Assembly: GCA_017849585.1 (NCBI GenBank)
Contig: JAFIGT010000032.1
Span: forward strand, 1-64,000
Source: Verrucomicrobium sp.
GTDB lineage: Bacteria > Verrucomicrobiota > Verrucomicrobiia > Methylacidiphilales > UBA1321
Direction: 5' to 3'
DNA: 64,000 nt
A program made the position numbers and the translations under genes. Positions 44,156-49,890 of this stretch are shown one piece after another; the stretch's first letter is position 1; each line of letters opens with the position of its first letter. The notes below the pieces were generated by a model. The model searched no databases and was not told the origin of the DNA. It saw only the letters and a list, made by a program, of their open reading frames with translations.

Positions 44156-44209
44156 GTTTGATAGACAAATCAATAAATCGTGGTTTATGCTGAGTCGTTA
44201 GGAACTCAG
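44156..44209. promoter_or_regulatory. Operator-like sites upstream of the GntR/LacI-hybrid gene
   Basis: GTTTGATAGACAAAT (44156-44170) shares its right half with the perfect palindrome at 45466-45480. A separate inverted repeat CTGAGT (44190-44195)/ACTCAG (44204-44209) with an 8-base loop follows, 14 bases before the ATG. Both would fit autoregulation. The rest of the gap 43951-44223 shows no gene. Confidence 0.4.
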
Positions 44210-44223
44210 ATTTGTAAGTCAAT

Positions 44224-45315
44224 ATGGCTACCCGCACAACCAAGAAGCTCGATATCGTTTTTGAGGAACTGGAGCGTCGCATCCTTGAGAAGAAATGGAA
44301 GGTCGGTGATCAGATTCCGACTGAGGCCGAGTTAACGGTGGAGTTTGATTGCAGCCGTAGCACTGTGGGCAAGGCCATTGCGCGGCTGGAGCATGGCGGG
44401 CTTGTTGCTCGTCGCACCCGTGCGGGCACACACGTGATCAGCAATACGAAGATCAATGCCGTCCCGCCGCCGCTGCTCAATGCCTTCGCTTTTGTCTATC
44501 CCAGCAACCAGCACGAAGGTGTGTGGCGCACAGTCCGGGGTTTTCAGGAGGCCGCTCATGAGCTGGAGCGCCGTGCGCTCCTGATGTCGACCGGTGCGAA
44601 TGTGGAGAAGGAGATGGAAATTGTCTCGCGATTGGGAGAATTTGATATCAAAGGGGCGGTCGTGTTCCCGATGCGGATCGATCAACAAAGTCATCCCCGT
44701 TATAGTGAAATGATCGCAAATTGCCCCTTTCCACTCGTGCTGGTGGAAGTGAACCTTCCTGAGTCCGGACGTCCGGCGGTGGTGGTGGACGGTTTCGATG
44801 CAGGCTATGTGATGACCCGGCATCTGCTGGATCGTGGGCTGAAGAAGATCGGTTTCTTGGCCAACTACGCATGGGTTGCGACCACGCGGGACAAGTATCA
44901 GGGCTATCGCCGCGCCATGGCCGAGGCAGGGATAGAGGATGTGGGGGTGTTATCTCTGTTGGAGCCGGAGATGCGGCCGAGCTATGATGATCCGTTGCGC
45001 GAGCCGACCGAGCTGGCGGCGACCTATCTGGAAACACGCTCGGAGGTGGAGGGTGTGGTGTGTTCGAGCGATTTTCTTGCGCTCGGATTATTGAAGGCGG
45101 CTGAGGTGAATGGTTTGCGGGTGCCGGAGGACTTGAAGGTGGTGGGGATCGATGATTTCGTACTTGCTGCAGATGCGGGTCTCACGACGTATCGCATTCC
45201 CTATGAGGAAATTGGAAATAGGGCGTGTCAGATTTTGAATGACATAAATCATGGCCGGGGTTCCGCAGGAGAACTTCATCTGCGCGGGCAATTGGTCGTG
45301 CGACGGACTTCGTAG
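44224..45315 (+). CDS. GntR/LacI-hybrid (AraR-like) transcriptional regulator
   Basis: 363 residues. Residues 5-75 are a GntR-type winged helix (IVFEELERRILEKKWKVGDQ, then PTEAELTVEFDCSRSTVGKAIA, and RTRAGTHV at the wing). Residues 85-360 are a LacI/GalR-like sugar-binding domain (PLVLVEVNLPESGRPAVVVD, GYVMTRHLLDRGLKKIGFL, LGLLKAAEVNGLRVPEDLKVVGIDD). Bacillus AraR has this architecture. It precedes the four-gene operon on the same strand, and the palindrome before that operon resembles an AraR-type site. It is probably a sugar-released repressor of the operon. Confidence 0.92.
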   Translation: MATRTTKKLDIVFEELERRILEKKWKVGDQIPTEAELTVEFDCSRSTVGKAIARLEHGGLVARRTRAGTHVISNTKINAVPPPLLNAFAFVYPSNQHEGVWRTVRGFQEAAHELERRALLMSTGANVEKEMEIVSRLGEFDIKGAVVFPMRIDQQSHPRYSEMIANCPFPLVLVEVNLPESGRPAVVVDGFDAGYVMTRHLLDRGLKKIGFLANYAWVATTRDKYQGYRRAMAEAGIEDVGVLSLLEPEMRPSYDDPLREPTELAATYLETRSEVEGVVCSSDFLALGLLKAAEVNGLRVPEDLKVVGIDDFVLAADAGLTTYRIPYEEIGNRACQILNDINHGRGSAGELHLRGQLVVRRTS

Positions 45316-45465
45316 AGCCTTCTTGGGGCTGTCTGGCATCAATCCACAAGAGAGGTTCGTCCGGGGGACGGGCCAGCCATTTTTCGCATAAGTTAGTTCT
45401 TATTCATAAGCGACTTAAGCCGAAATCCTGATTATGAGATTGCTACGTTGCCGGTTTGGTTTTAT

Positions 45466-45480
45466 ATTTGTCTGACAAAT
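45466..45480. promoter_or_regulatory. Perfect 15-bp palindrome before the four-gene operon
   Basis: ATTTGTCTGACAAAT has 7-bp arms around a central T and lies 30 bases before the dehydrogenase start. Its ATTTGT...ACAAAT edges match the published style of AraR operators. It is the probable target of the regulator at 44224. Confidence 0.65.
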
Positions 45481-45510
45481 AGAAGCCTTTCTTTTCCTCT
45501 CATTTTCCCC

Positions 45511-46545
45511 ATGAAAACTTCCCCTGCGCTGGTTTTGGAACGGCCGTATCAGGCCTCGTATCGTGAAATTGAACTGACCTCGATGACGCCGGACACGATC
45601 CTGTGCCGCACGACGTTGAGCGCGATCAGTTCCGGCACCGACATGAAAACGTGGCGAGGCCAGCAGCACCCGGAGCAGTGTTGGTATCCGCTCGTGCCGG
45701 GTTATGAAAGCGTGGGCGTGGTGGAGCAGGTGGGGCCGGAGGCGAAGACCAGTTTGAAGCCGGGCGACCGGGTCATGATCAACGAGTGCCGCCAGTTCGC
45801 GAATGTCTGCGCGGCGTGGGGCGGCAGCGTGAAGTATGTGCTGAAGAATTCAGTTACTGCGCCATCGCCGTTCGATTACATGGTGAAGATACCGGACAAC
45901 GTGTCCGACCGCGACGCGGTGCTGGCGTACCTCGCGTGTGTGGCGTTGAAGGGTGCGAAGCGGCTGACGTATCGTCCCAATGAAGCCATTCTCATCGTGG
46001 GCGCGGGCATGGTCGGATTGAGCGCAGCGCAGATTGTCAAAATCCTGAATCCTTCCGCGAAGGTGATCGTGATCGACCGCTCCGCGTTCCGTTGCGAGAT
46101 CGCACGGCACTATGCGGATCACGTTTTCCTCGCAGATGGCACCGAAGTGGCCAAGCTTGTTGAGGCCACAGACGGCAAGAAAGCCGACAAGATCATCGAA
46201 TGCAGCGGTCATTCGGAAGTCGTGGGCACACTGCACAAATACCTCAAGGACGGTGGTTGGGCGCACGACGACGAGCCCGGTCACATCCATTTGCAGGGTG
46301 ATTATCCCGAGCCGGTCACGCTCGATTCGTGGCATCGCTGGTTCACGAAGAATTGCACCGTCACGATGACGTGCGCGCTCGGGCCGGGGACGAAGGAGCA
46401 GATTTTGCAGTGGATGAGCGAAGGGAAATTCAACACGACGCATCTGCCCACGGAGCTGTGGAAGGCGGAGCAAGGTCACGAGGCGTTCACGTACAAACAA
46501 TCCAAGGGCGACGCGGTGTTCAAGGTGTTGCTGGAGTGGAGCTGA
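45511..46545 (+). CDS. Medium-chain dehydrogenase/reductase without classic zinc ligands
   Basis: 344 residues from the ATG at 45511; the upstream frame to 45448 runs into the operator and is rejected. It has the MDR fold: an N-terminal GroES-like part and a Rossmann domain with ILIVGAGMVGLSAAQIVK (about 156-173). In zinc alcohol dehydrogenases the catalytic site starts CGTD and GHE. Here it reads SSGTD (about 40-44) and GYE (about 64-66), so the zinc Cys and His are replaced. This resembles the BchC-like MDR branch. It probably oxidises or reduces a sugar or cyclitol hydroxyl with NAD(P). The next gene starts 2 bases after its stop. Confidence 0.85.
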   Translation: MKTSPALVLERPYQASYREIELTSMTPDTILCRTTLSAISSGTDMKTWRGQQHPEQCWYPLVPGYESVGVVEQVGPEAKTSLKPGDRVMINECRQFANVCAAWGGSVKYVLKNSVTAPSPFDYMVKIPDNVSDRDAVLAYLACVALKGAKRLTYRPNEAILIVGAGMVGLSAAQIVKILNPSAKVIVIDRSAFRCEIARHYADHVFLADGTEVAKLVEATDGKKADKIIECSGHSEVVGTLHKYLKDGGWAHDDEPGHIHLQGDYPEPVTLDSWHRWFTKNCTVTMTCALGPGTKEQILQWMSEGKFNTTHLPTELWKAEQGHEAFTYKQSKGDAVFKVLLEWS

Positions 46546-46547
46546 TC

Positions 46548-47375
46548 ATGCAATTCGGCAGCGCTGCGTGGGGCTTTCGCGAAACCCCGTTGGAGCAGCA
46601 ACTCGCCATCACGCGGGAGCTGGGACTTTCGTTTTTAGAGCTTGGTGTGGCGGGTCACGAGAATGATTTCTTGCAGGTGGACGCGACGGCGGAGCAGATC
46701 ACCCGGGTGGGCGAGCTGTTTACACGGTACGGCGTGTCGTTGCGGGCGGTGTCGACCGGTAACGATTTCACACAAGCCGACGAGTCCGCCTGCAAGACGG
46801 ATTTGGAAAAAATCATGCGCGTGACGGCGTTGGCGGAGGCGCTGGGTGCCCGGACACTGCGCATCTTCGCGGGATTCAGTCCGGCGGAAGAGGTGACCGG
46901 GGCGCGCTGGAAACGGATGGTGTCGTGCCTGAACGAAGCAGTTGAACATGCGTCGCGGCACGGTGTGACTCTCGCGGTGGAAACGCACGGCGGAGTGAAA
47001 TCGGTTCCGGGTGGCATTGCGCATTTTCACAGCACCTCGACGAAGCCGGAATTATTGACGCGTTGGCTAGGCGAGGTGTCACCGAAGGCGCGGCTGTTGT
47101 TTGATCCGGCGAATCTCGGCGCGGTGGGGATGAACGAAACCGAAATCCTCGCGCTCTATCGTCAACTGCAATCGCAGATCGCGGTGTTTCATCTGAAGGA
47201 TTTCAAGCGGGTCAACCCGACGGCGATTCAACCATGTGCGTGCGGCGAGGGGATGCTCGACTGGTCGCAACTGATGGCCGGATTTCGCGCGTTCGAGGGT
47301 ATCGGTTTTCTCGAGTACGAAATGACTGCCGACATCGTGGACGGATTGAAGCGAACGCTTAAAGCGATTGCGTAA
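46548..47375 (+). CDS. Xylose isomerase-like TIM-barrel sugar epimerase/isomerase
   Basis: 275 residues from the ATG at 46548; a much longer upstream frame overlaps the dehydrogenase and is a shadow. It belongs to the AP-endonuclease-2/xylose-isomerase barrel family. Metal-ligand positions are visible in TLAVETHGG (Glu), LLFDPANLG (Asp), VFHLKDFK (His) and FLEYEMT (Glu). CGEGMLDW is the usual penultimate strand motif. Family members interconvert sugars, keto-sugars or inosose-type compounds. It sits between the dehydrogenase and the radical SAM gene, so it likely works on the dehydrogenase product or substrate. Confidence 0.85.
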   Translation: MQFGSAAWGFRETPLEQQLAITRELGLSFLELGVAGHENDFLQVDATAEQITRVGELFTRYGVSLRAVSTGNDFTQADESACKTDLEKIMRVTALAEALGARTLRIFAGFSPAEEVTGARWKRMVSCLNEAVEHASRHGVTLAVETHGGVKSVPGGIAHFHSTSTKPELLTRWLGEVSPKARLLFDPANLGAVGMNETEILALYRQLQSQIAVFHLKDFKRVNPTAIQPCACGEGMLDWSQLMAGFRAFEGIGFLEYEMTADIVDGLKRTLKAIA

Positions 47376-47387
47376 ACGAGAGGTTTG

Positions 47388-48443
47388 ATGCTCACGCCGG
47401 AACTTCGCCTCATTCATTTGCAGTTAACCAAGCACTGCAATTTGCGCTGCTCGTTTTGCGGGCAGTGGGGCGAACACGGCTACATGAAGGAATCGTCTGC
47501 GGACGATCTCACGACGGCGCAATGGCTCGACGTGGTGGCGCAGGCGGCGGCATATCGCGCGGAGACCGGCATTGCGCCGCAGTTCATCCTGTGGGGCGGC
47601 GAACCGCTTGCGAGCCCGGCTTTTCCGGCGGTGAGCGCGGCCTTGCGCGAAGCGGGCTTCACGACAGCATTGATTACCAATGGCGTGCTGATCGAAAAGC
47701 ATCTCAACTCGATCAACCGCACGATCGATACGGTTTATATTTCGCTTGATGGACCTCCCGAAGTGCACGAGCGCGTGCGCGGCGCGAAGGGAATCTGGCA
47801 GCGGATCGAACGCGGCTTGGCGGGGTTAGACCCTGCGAAGGTGATGCGGGTCTGCTTGTTCACGCTCTGCGGCGAGAACTGGCGCGAAGCGGTGACGTTT
47901 CCACACCGCTTGGGATCGCTCGGTTTCGACCGCGTGATTTATCAAAACCTGATCTATTGCACGAGCGCGCAGGCGGACGATTACCGCCGGTGGATGCGGG
48001 AGAGTTTCGCGCAGTCCGCGCCCCGGTTGGATTCGTGGATCAGCGATGCGCCGGAACCGTGGGTGGCGGAGTTGCCCGGCGTGGTGTCTGCCTTGGAGGA
48101 AAAGATCCGCGCGGGCTCGTATCCGCTCGAAGTGCAGCTTTATCCCGGCGAGTTGAACGCGGGGAATATCGCGCAGTGGTACGACTCGTCCGTGCCTCTC
48201 AAGAAGACGCGTCTGCCGTGCGTGATGCCGTTCCGGCACTTGCAAATCAATCACGATGGGCAGACCCATTTTTGCGTGGACTTCAACGACTTCACGCTCG
48301 GTAGCGTGCGGGAGCATTCCGTGCTCGAACTTTTTACCAATGACCGCGCGCGCCGTTTCCGCACCGAGGGGGCAACCTGCAACAGTCTCTGCGCGCGGTG
48401 CCCCTGGTACTACAACGACTCGCTCGCGGTCGATCAGCGCTAA
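47388..48443 (+). CDS. Radical SAM enzyme with SPASM/twitch-like C-terminus
   Basis: 351 residues from ATG at 47388. A TTG three bases earlier is less likely. The radical SAM cluster motif CNLRCSFC (C17, C21, C24) binds the SAM-cleaving 4Fe-4S centre. GGEP is present (LWGGEPLAS, about 66-69), as are ISLDGPPEVHERVRG-type barrel elements. Five further Cys near the C-terminus (LPCVMPF, HFCVDF, TCNSLCARC) look like an auxiliary-cluster domain. Such enzymes modify peptides or sugars by radical chemistry. No precursor peptide was found nearby, and the neighbours are carbohydrate enzymes, so a sugar substrate is favoured. This is inference. Confidence 0.88.
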   Translation: MLTPELRLIHLQLTKHCNLRCSFCGQWGEHGYMKESSADDLTTAQWLDVVAQAAAYRAETGIAPQFILWGGEPLASPAFPAVSAALREAGFTTALITNGVLIEKHLNSINRTIDTVYISLDGPPEVHERVRGAKGIWQRIERGLAGLDPAKVMRVCLFTLCGENWREAVTFPHRLGSLGFDRVIYQNLIYCTSAQADDYRRWMRESFAQSAPRLDSWISDAPEPWVAELPGVVSALEEKIRAGSYPLEVQLYPGELNAGNIAQWYDSSVPLKKTRLPCVMPFRHLQINHDGQTHFCVDFNDFTLGSVREHSVLELFTNDRARRFRTEGATCNSLCARCPWYYNDSLAVDQR

Positions 48444-48451
48444 AACATTTT

Positions 48452-49846
48452 ATGCAAAAACCACAAATCATCTACATGCCGCATGCGAATATCCAATATT
48501 CGCAGCTCGCCCCGGAAAAACGCCAGTGGGTCATGAAAAACTCGTACGAGAAACTCTTCGATCTCGTGCTGAGCGGACCCTACAAAATCGCCTTCGAAGC
48601 GTCGGGCAAGACGATCGAGGAGATCGCCCTGCAAGCGCCCGAGGTGTTGGAAAAATTGAAGCAGCTCGTTGCGGAAAAGAAGCTGGAGCCGGTCTCATCG
48701 CCGTACATCCATTTCATGCTTTCGAATATCCCCACCGAAATCACGCTCGACTCGCTGCGCTACGCGCTCGACATCTGGGAGAAGTACGTCGGCGTGCGGC
48801 CCGAGACCGGATGGAACCCCGAGTGCGGCTGGGCGTCGTACGTGCCGGACCTGTACCAGAAGGCGGGCTTCAAGACGCTCGTGATGGATGCTGATTCGCT
48901 GCTATTGTCGTTCGAAGAAATTCGTCAGGCCACGGGCTTGAAGTACGATATTCAGGGTCACAGCAACAAGAATCACCTTTTCAAAATCGAGGACTATATT
49001 CAGGACAAGCCCGACTTCCTGAAGTACATCACCAATCCCTCGAAGACCGAGAGCGGTTTGCAGATGATTTTCCGTTCTGACTGCATGGCCAATCCGATGC
49101 TCTGGTTCCTCATGGGCGCGACCGAAGGCATGCGCAAGGAGCCCGTCTCGCTGAAGGAAATCCAGACGTTGCTGGCGAAGTGGAAGACGCGCATCGAACA
49201 GAGCGGCTCGTTCATCATGCCTTACGCCGAAGACGCCGAGTACATCGGCACGTCGGCCTACTTCTACGTGAAGCAATTCAATCAGGCGCGCTTCTTCGAG
49301 CCGGAACCGCAGAGCGTGACGCGCTTCGGTCAGTTGCTCGATTCCGCCATCGAAGCGGGCTACGAACTTTCCACACCGAGCGAAGTCATCGCCGCGGCGG
49401 GTAAGAATGTCTTCGTCAACGAGCACGTCCTCGACATCGAGAACGGTGTCGCGTGGCACGGCGGCACCGCCAAGGCATGGGCGAACACGGAGTACTCGCG
49501 CTTGATGGACCCGGTCTGCCAATCGATTCTCAATGGCATCAAGGAAGTCGCGCAGCATGTCGGACTCGACCTCGATACGCTCGATGCGGACCTGTCGACC
49601 GCGATGAAGGCCGTGACCAGCGCCTATGTTTCCGATTCGCGTTGGCCGCCACTGCCGACCTCACCGGGGCGGTTCAACGTGCGTGAATCGCTCGATGACA
49701 TGGTCGTGGCGAACAACGCGCTGCGGGCCGCAATGGTGAAGCGCGGGATCGCGCACAAGCGCAGTTTGTATTCGCCCGAGCTCATGGCGACGCAGATCAA
49801 GGCGATCGACGATCAGCTCATGGCGCGGAAATACTTCGGCGAGTAG
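48452..49846 (+). CDS. GH57-like glycoside hydrolase/transferase
   Basis: 464 residues from the ATG at 48452; the longer frame to 48398 runs into the radical SAM gene. It has the GH57/GH38-type seven-stranded barrel features: MPHANIQYS near residue 9 (active-site His region) and GWNPECGWAS near residue 120, where the family's catalytic Glu normally lies (E124). Then come FIMPYAEDAEYIGTSAYFYV and a helical C-terminal domain. Known members include 4-alpha-glucanotransferases, amylopullulanases and branching enzymes. There is no signal peptide, so it is cytoplasmic. It is the last gene of the operon, followed by a terminator. Substrate is unknown. Confidence 0.7.
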   Translation: MQKPQIIYMPHANIQYSQLAPEKRQWVMKNSYEKLFDLVLSGPYKIAFEASGKTIEEIALQAPEVLEKLKQLVAEKKLEPVSSPYIHFMLSNIPTEITLDSLRYALDIWEKYVGVRPETGWNPECGWASYVPDLYQKAGFKTLVMDADSLLLSFEEIRQATGLKYDIQGHSNKNHLFKIEDYIQDKPDFLKYITNPSKTESGLQMIFRSDCMANPMLWFLMGATEGMRKEPVSLKEIQTLLAKWKTRIEQSGSFIMPYAEDAEYIGTSAYFYVKQFNQARFFEPEPQSVTRFGQLLDSAIEAGYELSTPSEVIAAAGKNVFVNEHVLDIENGVAWHGGTAKAWANTEYSRLMDPVCQSILNGIKEVAQHVGLDLDTLDADLSTAMKAVTSAYVSDSRWPPLPTSPGRFNVRESLDDMVVANNALRAAMVKRGIAHKRSLYSPELMATQIKAIDDQLMARKYFGE

Positions 49847-49857
49847 TTCCGCTTTCG

Positions 49858-49890
49858 AAAAGCCTCCGGTTACAAGCCGGAGGCTTTTTT
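49858..49890 (+). terminator. Intrinsic terminator closing the four-gene operon
   Basis: AAAAGCCTCCGG (49858-49869) pairs with CCGGAGGCTTTT (49877-49888) around TTACAAG, giving a 12-bp stem with the T-run partly inside it. Confidence 0.93.

Follow-up and report, generated by a model that had tools for sequence, protein, structure and literature searches.

What does a radical S-adenosylmethionine (SAM) enzyme do in an operon of probable sugar-acting enzymes? The question is raised by a regulator gene and a four-gene operon at positions 44,224 to 49,890 of a 64,000-nucleotide stretch of DNA from Verrucomicrobium sp. (GenBank assembly GCA_017849585.1, contig JAFIGT010000032.1), referred to below as the window. 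The four enzymes are named MDR (a dehydrogenase), TIM (an AP_endonuc_2 barrel), rSAM (the radical SAM enzyme), and the GH57-like protein. With fair confidence, we read the locus as an inducible operon for carbohydrate catabolism in the cytoplasm: MDR, TIM, and rSAM would act on one sugar, glycoside, or cyclitol residue, and the GH57-like protein would be the glycosidase. Synteny, co-occurrence with MDR, operator copies, intact catalytic motifs, glycosidase neighbors, and the likeness of rSAM to BlsE and BtrN support this reading.

Organization of the locus

An earlier note on this DNA had described an upstream regulator, a perfect palindrome, four genes with gaps of 2-12 bases, and a terminator. 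Gene coordinates, Pfam matches, and the hairpin bear out this layout:

44224-45315, + strand: regulator, GntR-type helix-turn-helix fused to a LacI/Peripla_BP_3 sugar-sensor domain (Pfam GntR E=9e-16, Peripla_BP_3 E=6e-24)
45465-45481, no strand: putative operator, the perfect 17-bp palindrome TATTTGTCTGACAAATA (8-bp arms, 1-base center)
45511-46545, + strand: MDR-superfamily dehydrogenase, BchC-like and lacking zinc ligands (Pfam ADH_N and ADH_zinc_N)
46548-47375, + strand: TIM barrel of the sugar isomerase/epimerase/hydratase type (Pfam AP_endonuc_2)
47388-48443, + strand: rSAM with a twitch/SPASM C-terminal domain (Pfam Radical_SAM and SPASM)
48452-49846, + strand: GH57-like protein (Pfam Glyco_hydro_57)
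49858-49888, + strand: rho-independent terminator-like hairpin at the end of the operon (12-bp arms, 100% complementary, then a T run)

The successive intergenic spacings are 2, 12, and 8 bases, and Pfam matches exceed the gathering threshold for every family of the five proteins. Because no signal-peptide-like start was seen by eye in the four enzymes, they are probably cytoplasmic.

Conservation of the gene set

The gene set recurs so widely that chance assembly is not a plausible explanation. A locus scan limited to a single genome for each species yielded 79 loci, of which 60 were assigned to the rSAM family (profile score >220 bits). MDR, TIM, and GH57-like genes all lie within 6 kb of rSAM at 29 of these 60 loci, contrary to the possibility, raised in the earlier note, that the four genes never co-occur elsewhere; 11 more loci carry MDR and TIM without GH57. 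Gene order varies (MDR-TIM-rSAM-GH57, MDR-TIM-GH57-rSAM, TIM-MDR-GH57-rSAM, and GH57-TIM-rSAM-MDR), and in Hungatella the order is a binding protein gene, two permease-sized open reading frames (ORFs), TIM, MDR, GH57, and rSAM. The proposed synteny across Verrucomicrobiota is conserved there and also reaches other phyla, the rSAM-clade loci coming from Verrucomicrobiota, Lentisphaerota, Planctomycetota, Bacillota (Hungatella, Ructibacterium), and UBP13. The cassette is present in many gut and environmental bacteria.

Among 289 genomes of the phylum, surveyed with rSAM presence defined as matches below 1e-80, rSAM occurs in 17 and MDR in 20, and 17/17 rSAM genomes have MDR (hypergeometric p=1e-24, uncorrected for phylogeny). 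Of the 22 genomes with a close GH57 homologue, 15 also have rSAM and 5 lack MDR. In 25 genomes with an incomplete locus, MDR was found at E<=1e-60 in 24, two of these holding only a 41%-identical paralogue, and GH57 was found somewhere in 14. No GH57 homologue at E<=1e-20 was detected in 11 of the 25 checked rSAM genomes, many of them incomplete drafts, which rules GH57 out of the obligatory core. The four-family set originally proposed thus stands as recurring synteny, with a core of MDR, TIM, and rSAM and with GH57 as a frequent, facultative partner. Pairwise distances of the four proteins correlate (Mantel r 0.73-0.85), a correlation to which shared descent alone contributes.

The rSAM tree sets the family apart from seven distant outgroup rows and intermixes Verrucomicrobiota, Lentisphaerota, Planctomycetota, Bacillota, Spirochaetota, and UBP13; this intermixing of phyla suggests some horizontal transfer.

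At two loci (L110:9962-16264 and L105:4071-10542), rSAM lies near an MDR of ~41% identity and a divergent TIM, with an 850-aa protein between them that has a weak GH5 match at L105. This arrangement is possibly a paralogous version of the pathway.

Features of the four enzymes

The radical SAM motif of rSAM reads CNLRCSFC, and its C17, C21, and C24, together with C278, C296, C335, and C338 of the auxiliary cluster, are invariant in 50/50 homologues, so that all seven cysteines are kept. The protein combines the CxxxCxxC motif with the C-terminal auxiliary domain of the twitch/SPASM superfamily (SPASM Pfam E=9e-12) and carries the four-Cys auxiliary ligand set of BtrN-type dehydrogenases. None of 25 NCBIfam radical SAM equivalog models listed (anSME, PqqE, NirJ, SbtM, and others) reaches its cutoff, the best match scoring 66 bits where 650 are required. 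Membership in a known unrelated clade, which would have spoken against the carbohydrate proposal, was not observed; the family forms its own clade. Its profile matches BtrN (E=5e-15), most strongly across the twitch region, and the AlphaFold model (pLDDT 94) gave its highest TM-scores, among the Foldseek matches listed, with BlsE (0.68/0.72, target-/query-normalized; 16% identity). BtrN, BlsE, and DesII all appear among the sequence or fold matches and are the sugar- or cyclitol-acting radical SAM enzymes closest to rSAM by fold or profile. All three act in antibiotic biosynthesis.

In BtrN, four cysteines ligate the auxiliary cluster, and the enzyme oxidizes a secondary alcohol in a two-electron reaction (PMC9012708). 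Our leading guess, by analogy with this enzyme, is that the radical step is a secondary-alcohol oxidation (or an epimerization); oxidation is favored because the four-Cys auxiliary cluster of rSAM resembles that of BtrN.

The best NCBIfam match of MDR is BchC (TIGR01202) at 106.7 bits, below the cutoff of 291.25, and its score against the IolM model (NF041097) is 71.5 bits, far below the cutoff of 450. We accordingly filed MDR under neither family. MDR lacks the catalytic zinc Cys and His of zinc-dependent MDR alcohol dehydrogenases: Ser40 and Tyr65 occupy, in 38/38 homologues, what we take from the MDR motif to be the equivalent positions. The Rossmann GxGxxG dinucleotide motif and Cys100 are invariant.

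In TIM, residues E145, D186, H215, and E256, which presumably form the metal-ligand set, are kept in 39/39 homologues and agree with the metal-binding E, D, H, E pattern of AP_endonuc_2 sugar isomerases and epimerases. Profile comparison identified Art22, L-ribulose-5-P 3-epimerase, and IolI as solved relatives, with the 2-hydroxy-3-keto-glucal hydratase 8ro4 matching weakly (25 bits).

The GH57-like protein (464 aa) exceeds the Pfam cutoff (60 bits vs 21.2), and its E124 (WNPECGW) and D261 (AEDAEYIG), which we assume to be the nucleophile and the acid/base, are present in 31/31 homologues. Its AlphaFold model (pLDDT 88.9) has the barrel fold, and the best PDB matches are GH57 enzymes (TM 0.53-0.63 on query length), so that profile, Glu/Asp pair, and fold all agree with GH57. 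The E124-C125 pair is also invariant. From these motifs, the protein is probably a retaining alpha-glycosidase.

Other families of the phylum likewise hold members of the GH57-like family, in surroundings that lack MDR, TIM, and rSAM (L069, L070, L072, L073, L074, and L075). At three of these loci (L069, L070, and L074), the gene adjoins one for a large protein that looks, by eye, like a parallel beta-helix.

A predicted regulon

Similar regulators adjoin the cassette at many loci. The regulator is probably a repressor of the operon, a role that we infer, and the 17-bp palindrome is probably its operator. TATTTGTCTGACAAATA is unchanged in the nearest relative (L079), and a shorter form, TTTGTCAGACAAA, occurs in L080. 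The window's own genome holds only two other exact 15-mer copies and one more that differs from the 17-mer by a single mismatch. These copies stand upstream of GH106, arabinofuranosidase-like, and weakly GH39/GH5-like genes:

L158:2664-5951, - strand: GH106 alpha-L-rhamnosidase, preceded by a palindrome copy (Pfam E=1e-141)
L159:6863-8920, + strand: alpha-L-arabinofuranosidase-like gene, preceded by a palindrome copy
L168:3239-6205, - strand: 988-aa protein with weak GH39/GH5 matches, preceded by a palindrome copy

Because the palindrome is kept in the nearest relative and repeated ahead of glycosidase genes, it is not a chance occurrence. In a second genome, orthologues of the GH106 and arabinofuranosidase-like genes (87-88% identity) still have an operator copy directly ahead of them, and a site with two mismatches lies before a cluster in which the 988-aa protein (36%) and GH106 (29%) both have relatives. 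Copies with 3 mismatches were disregarded since a control with the reversed pattern yielded 10 sites when up to 3 mismatches were allowed; one such match at 44156-44170, in the promoter of the regulator itself, lacks significance.

The operon and the glycosidase genes preceded by copies are predicted to form a small regulon. Given that operator copies precede the GH106 and arabinofuranosidase-like genes and their conserved orthologues, the regulon likely connects the cassette to a rhamnose-containing plant polysaccharide, and the cassette appears, as judged from these sites, to be switched on together with enzymes that cut plant sugars. Other lineages have different glycosidases, however, so the substrate of the core may be broader than this. 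The conserved carbohydrate pathway proposed in the earlier note is thereby supported by recurring synteny and tied, through the regulon, to alpha-L-rhamnosidase and arabinofuranosidase-like genes.

Genomic neighborhood

Flanking genes, of which a sample was scanned with Pfam, were carbohydrate-related or unrelated. The carbohydrate-related matches comprised GH36, GH78, GH106, GH3, GH39, GH31, GH63-like, GH116, and fucosidase genes, together with a CE7 esterase and a sugar ABC binding protein (SBP_bac_1); no Gfo/Idh/MocA oxidoreductase was matched in this sample. CE7 acetyl-xylan-esterase-like genes are inserted in the cassette at five loci (L051, L053, L080, L095, and L101), which suggests acetylated substrates. 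GH36 alpha-galactosidase-like genes lie within or beside it at six (L056, L063, L065, L066, L067, and L082). These neighbors and the inositol-type homologies had prompted us to consider a galactosyl-cyclitol (galactinol-like) substrate, for which direct support was lacking.

Proposed pathway and alternative explanations

In the proposed scheme, a sugar-responsive GntR/LacI-type repressor would bind the palindrome and control the operon together with enzymes encoded at other sites of the genome (GH106, arabinofuranosidase-like, and possibly GH39-like). These enzymes would trim a plant-type polysaccharide or glycoside, the product of which would be imported. Inside the cell, the NAD(P)-dependent MDR would carry out a redox step on a sugar or cyclitol residue, TIM would act as an isomerase, epimerase, or hydratase in carbonyl isomerization of that residue, rSAM would perform a radical C-H abstraction on it, and the GH57-like protein would cut an alpha-linked bond with retention. 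We infer the catabolic direction, the order of steps, and the direct action of rSAM on the sugar. The fuller proposition is that of a widespread, undescribed route of catabolism with an obligatory radical oxidation, epimerization, or dehydration of a plant or gut sugar by a twitch-domain enzyme, coupled to a zinc-less MDR and a TIM isomerase; we regard it as evenly balanced. No published description of the gene set or chemistry was found in the open-access full-text literature, and the pathway, which probably degrades an unusual sugar, is apparently undescribed. If the reading is true, a radical SAM step in glycan catabolism would be new chemistry for polysaccharide utilization. The cassette is encoded in Victivallis vadensis, Hungatella hathewayi, and Ructibacterium gallinarum, all of them cultured gut bacteria, and together with the regulon it makes the reading directly testable.

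Several points weigh against a catabolic operon. The main weakness is that stoichiometric use of SAM would be costly for bulk catabolism; rSAM would make sense there only if SAM were not consumed in turnover or if flux were low. The operon includes no transporter gene, and the rSAM gene stands apart from the cassette in several genomes. The glycosidases beside the cassette vary among loci and thus do not point to any one substrate. Finally, the top Foldseek match of rSAM by E-value is the peptide maturase SkfB.

This last point keeps in play a second, doubtful explanation, in which rSAM is a protein maturase, similar to anaerobic sulfatase maturases, that modifies a residue of its partner MDR or GH57 and not a sugar. 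SkfB and anSME rank among the best sequence and fold matches, rSAM is strictly linked to MDR, and both MDR Cys100 and the GH57 E124-C125 pair are invariant. However, the sulfatase-type CxPxR motif is not conserved in the MDR, TIM, or GH57 alignments, which speaks against sulfatase-type maturation; some genomes that lack rSAM have GH57 homologues with 53-63% identity and identical catalytic motifs; and the modeled rSAM barrel begins directly, with its first strand at residue 8, leaving no space for an N-terminal peptide-recognition domain. Peptide modification in the form of ribosomally synthesized and post-translationally modified peptide (RiPP) biosynthesis, with an overlooked precursor, is strongly disfavored. 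SPASM/twitch enzymes frequently modify peptides (PMC9012708), but a search for small ORFs near rSAM at the 60 loci found no family in more than 3, those being close relatives. The search rules against a RiPP maturase and agrees with the absence of a precursor noted earlier.

Two other explanations keep the sugar as the substrate. One, an oxidative route through keto-glycosides as in Agrobacterium, with MDR replacing Gfo/Idh, TIM acting as a 3-keto-glycal hydratase or eliminase, and rSAM and GH57 adding steps, is unlikely. The Agrobacterium operon encodes an oxidoreductase along with a TIM-barrel eliminase and an isomerase-like hydratase (PMC10628242), the TIM profile matches hydratase 8ro4, and nearby CE7, GH36, GH78, and GH106 genes suit broad glycoside use. 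That match is nonetheless weak and is outscored by Art22 and L-ribulose-5-P 3-epimerase, the pathway as described works without a radical SAM enzyme, and a glycoside hydrolase would be redundant if cleavage proceeded by elimination. Biosynthesis of a modified sugar, cyclitol, or aminoglycoside-like metabolite would fit the matches to BtrN, BlsE, and DesII, which are biosynthetic enzymes acting on sugars or cyclitols. We hold it improbable: the scanned flanks gave hydrolases, esterases, transport proteins, and unrelated genes, with no glycosyltransferase, aminotransferase, or nucleotidyltransferase among them, and the LacI-like sensor and the operator copies ahead of glycosidases point to catabolism.

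Comparison with known systems

BtrN, the 2-deoxy-scyllo-inosamine dehydrogenase of butirosin biosynthesis, shares with rSAM a core and twitch domain and four cysteines for one auxiliary cluster, but it differs in its biosynthetic context and partner genes and is absent among the 50 Foldseek matches listed. BlsE, a cytosylglucuronate decarboxylase with the best TM-scores listed, acts on a uronosyl nucleoside and serves antibiotic biosynthesis, and we know of no MDR, TIM, or GH57 partners for it.

At the level of pathways, the Agrobacterium 3-keto-glycoside system (AtOGE, AtHYD, and Gfo) likewise pairs a dehydrogenase with a TIM-barrel enzyme acting on glycosides (PMC10628242), but it uses a Gfo oxidoreductase in place of MDR and includes no radical SAM or GH57 enzyme. 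Both the IolM/IolO-type route of inositol catabolism and the operon described here combine an MDR with an AP_endonuc_2 enzyme; the former lacks radical SAM and GH57 components, and MDR falls far under the IolM cutoff. BchC, the bacteriochlorophyllide dehydrogenase, also lacks catalytic zinc ligands, whereas MDR scores under its cutoff and no photosynthesis genes were seen nearby. The GH57-like protein resembles 4-alpha-glucanotransferase, amylopullulanase, and branching enzyme in Pfam assignment, fold, Glu nucleophile, and Asp acid/base, but at ~10-16% identity to solved GH57 members in the fold search it constitutes a separate family.

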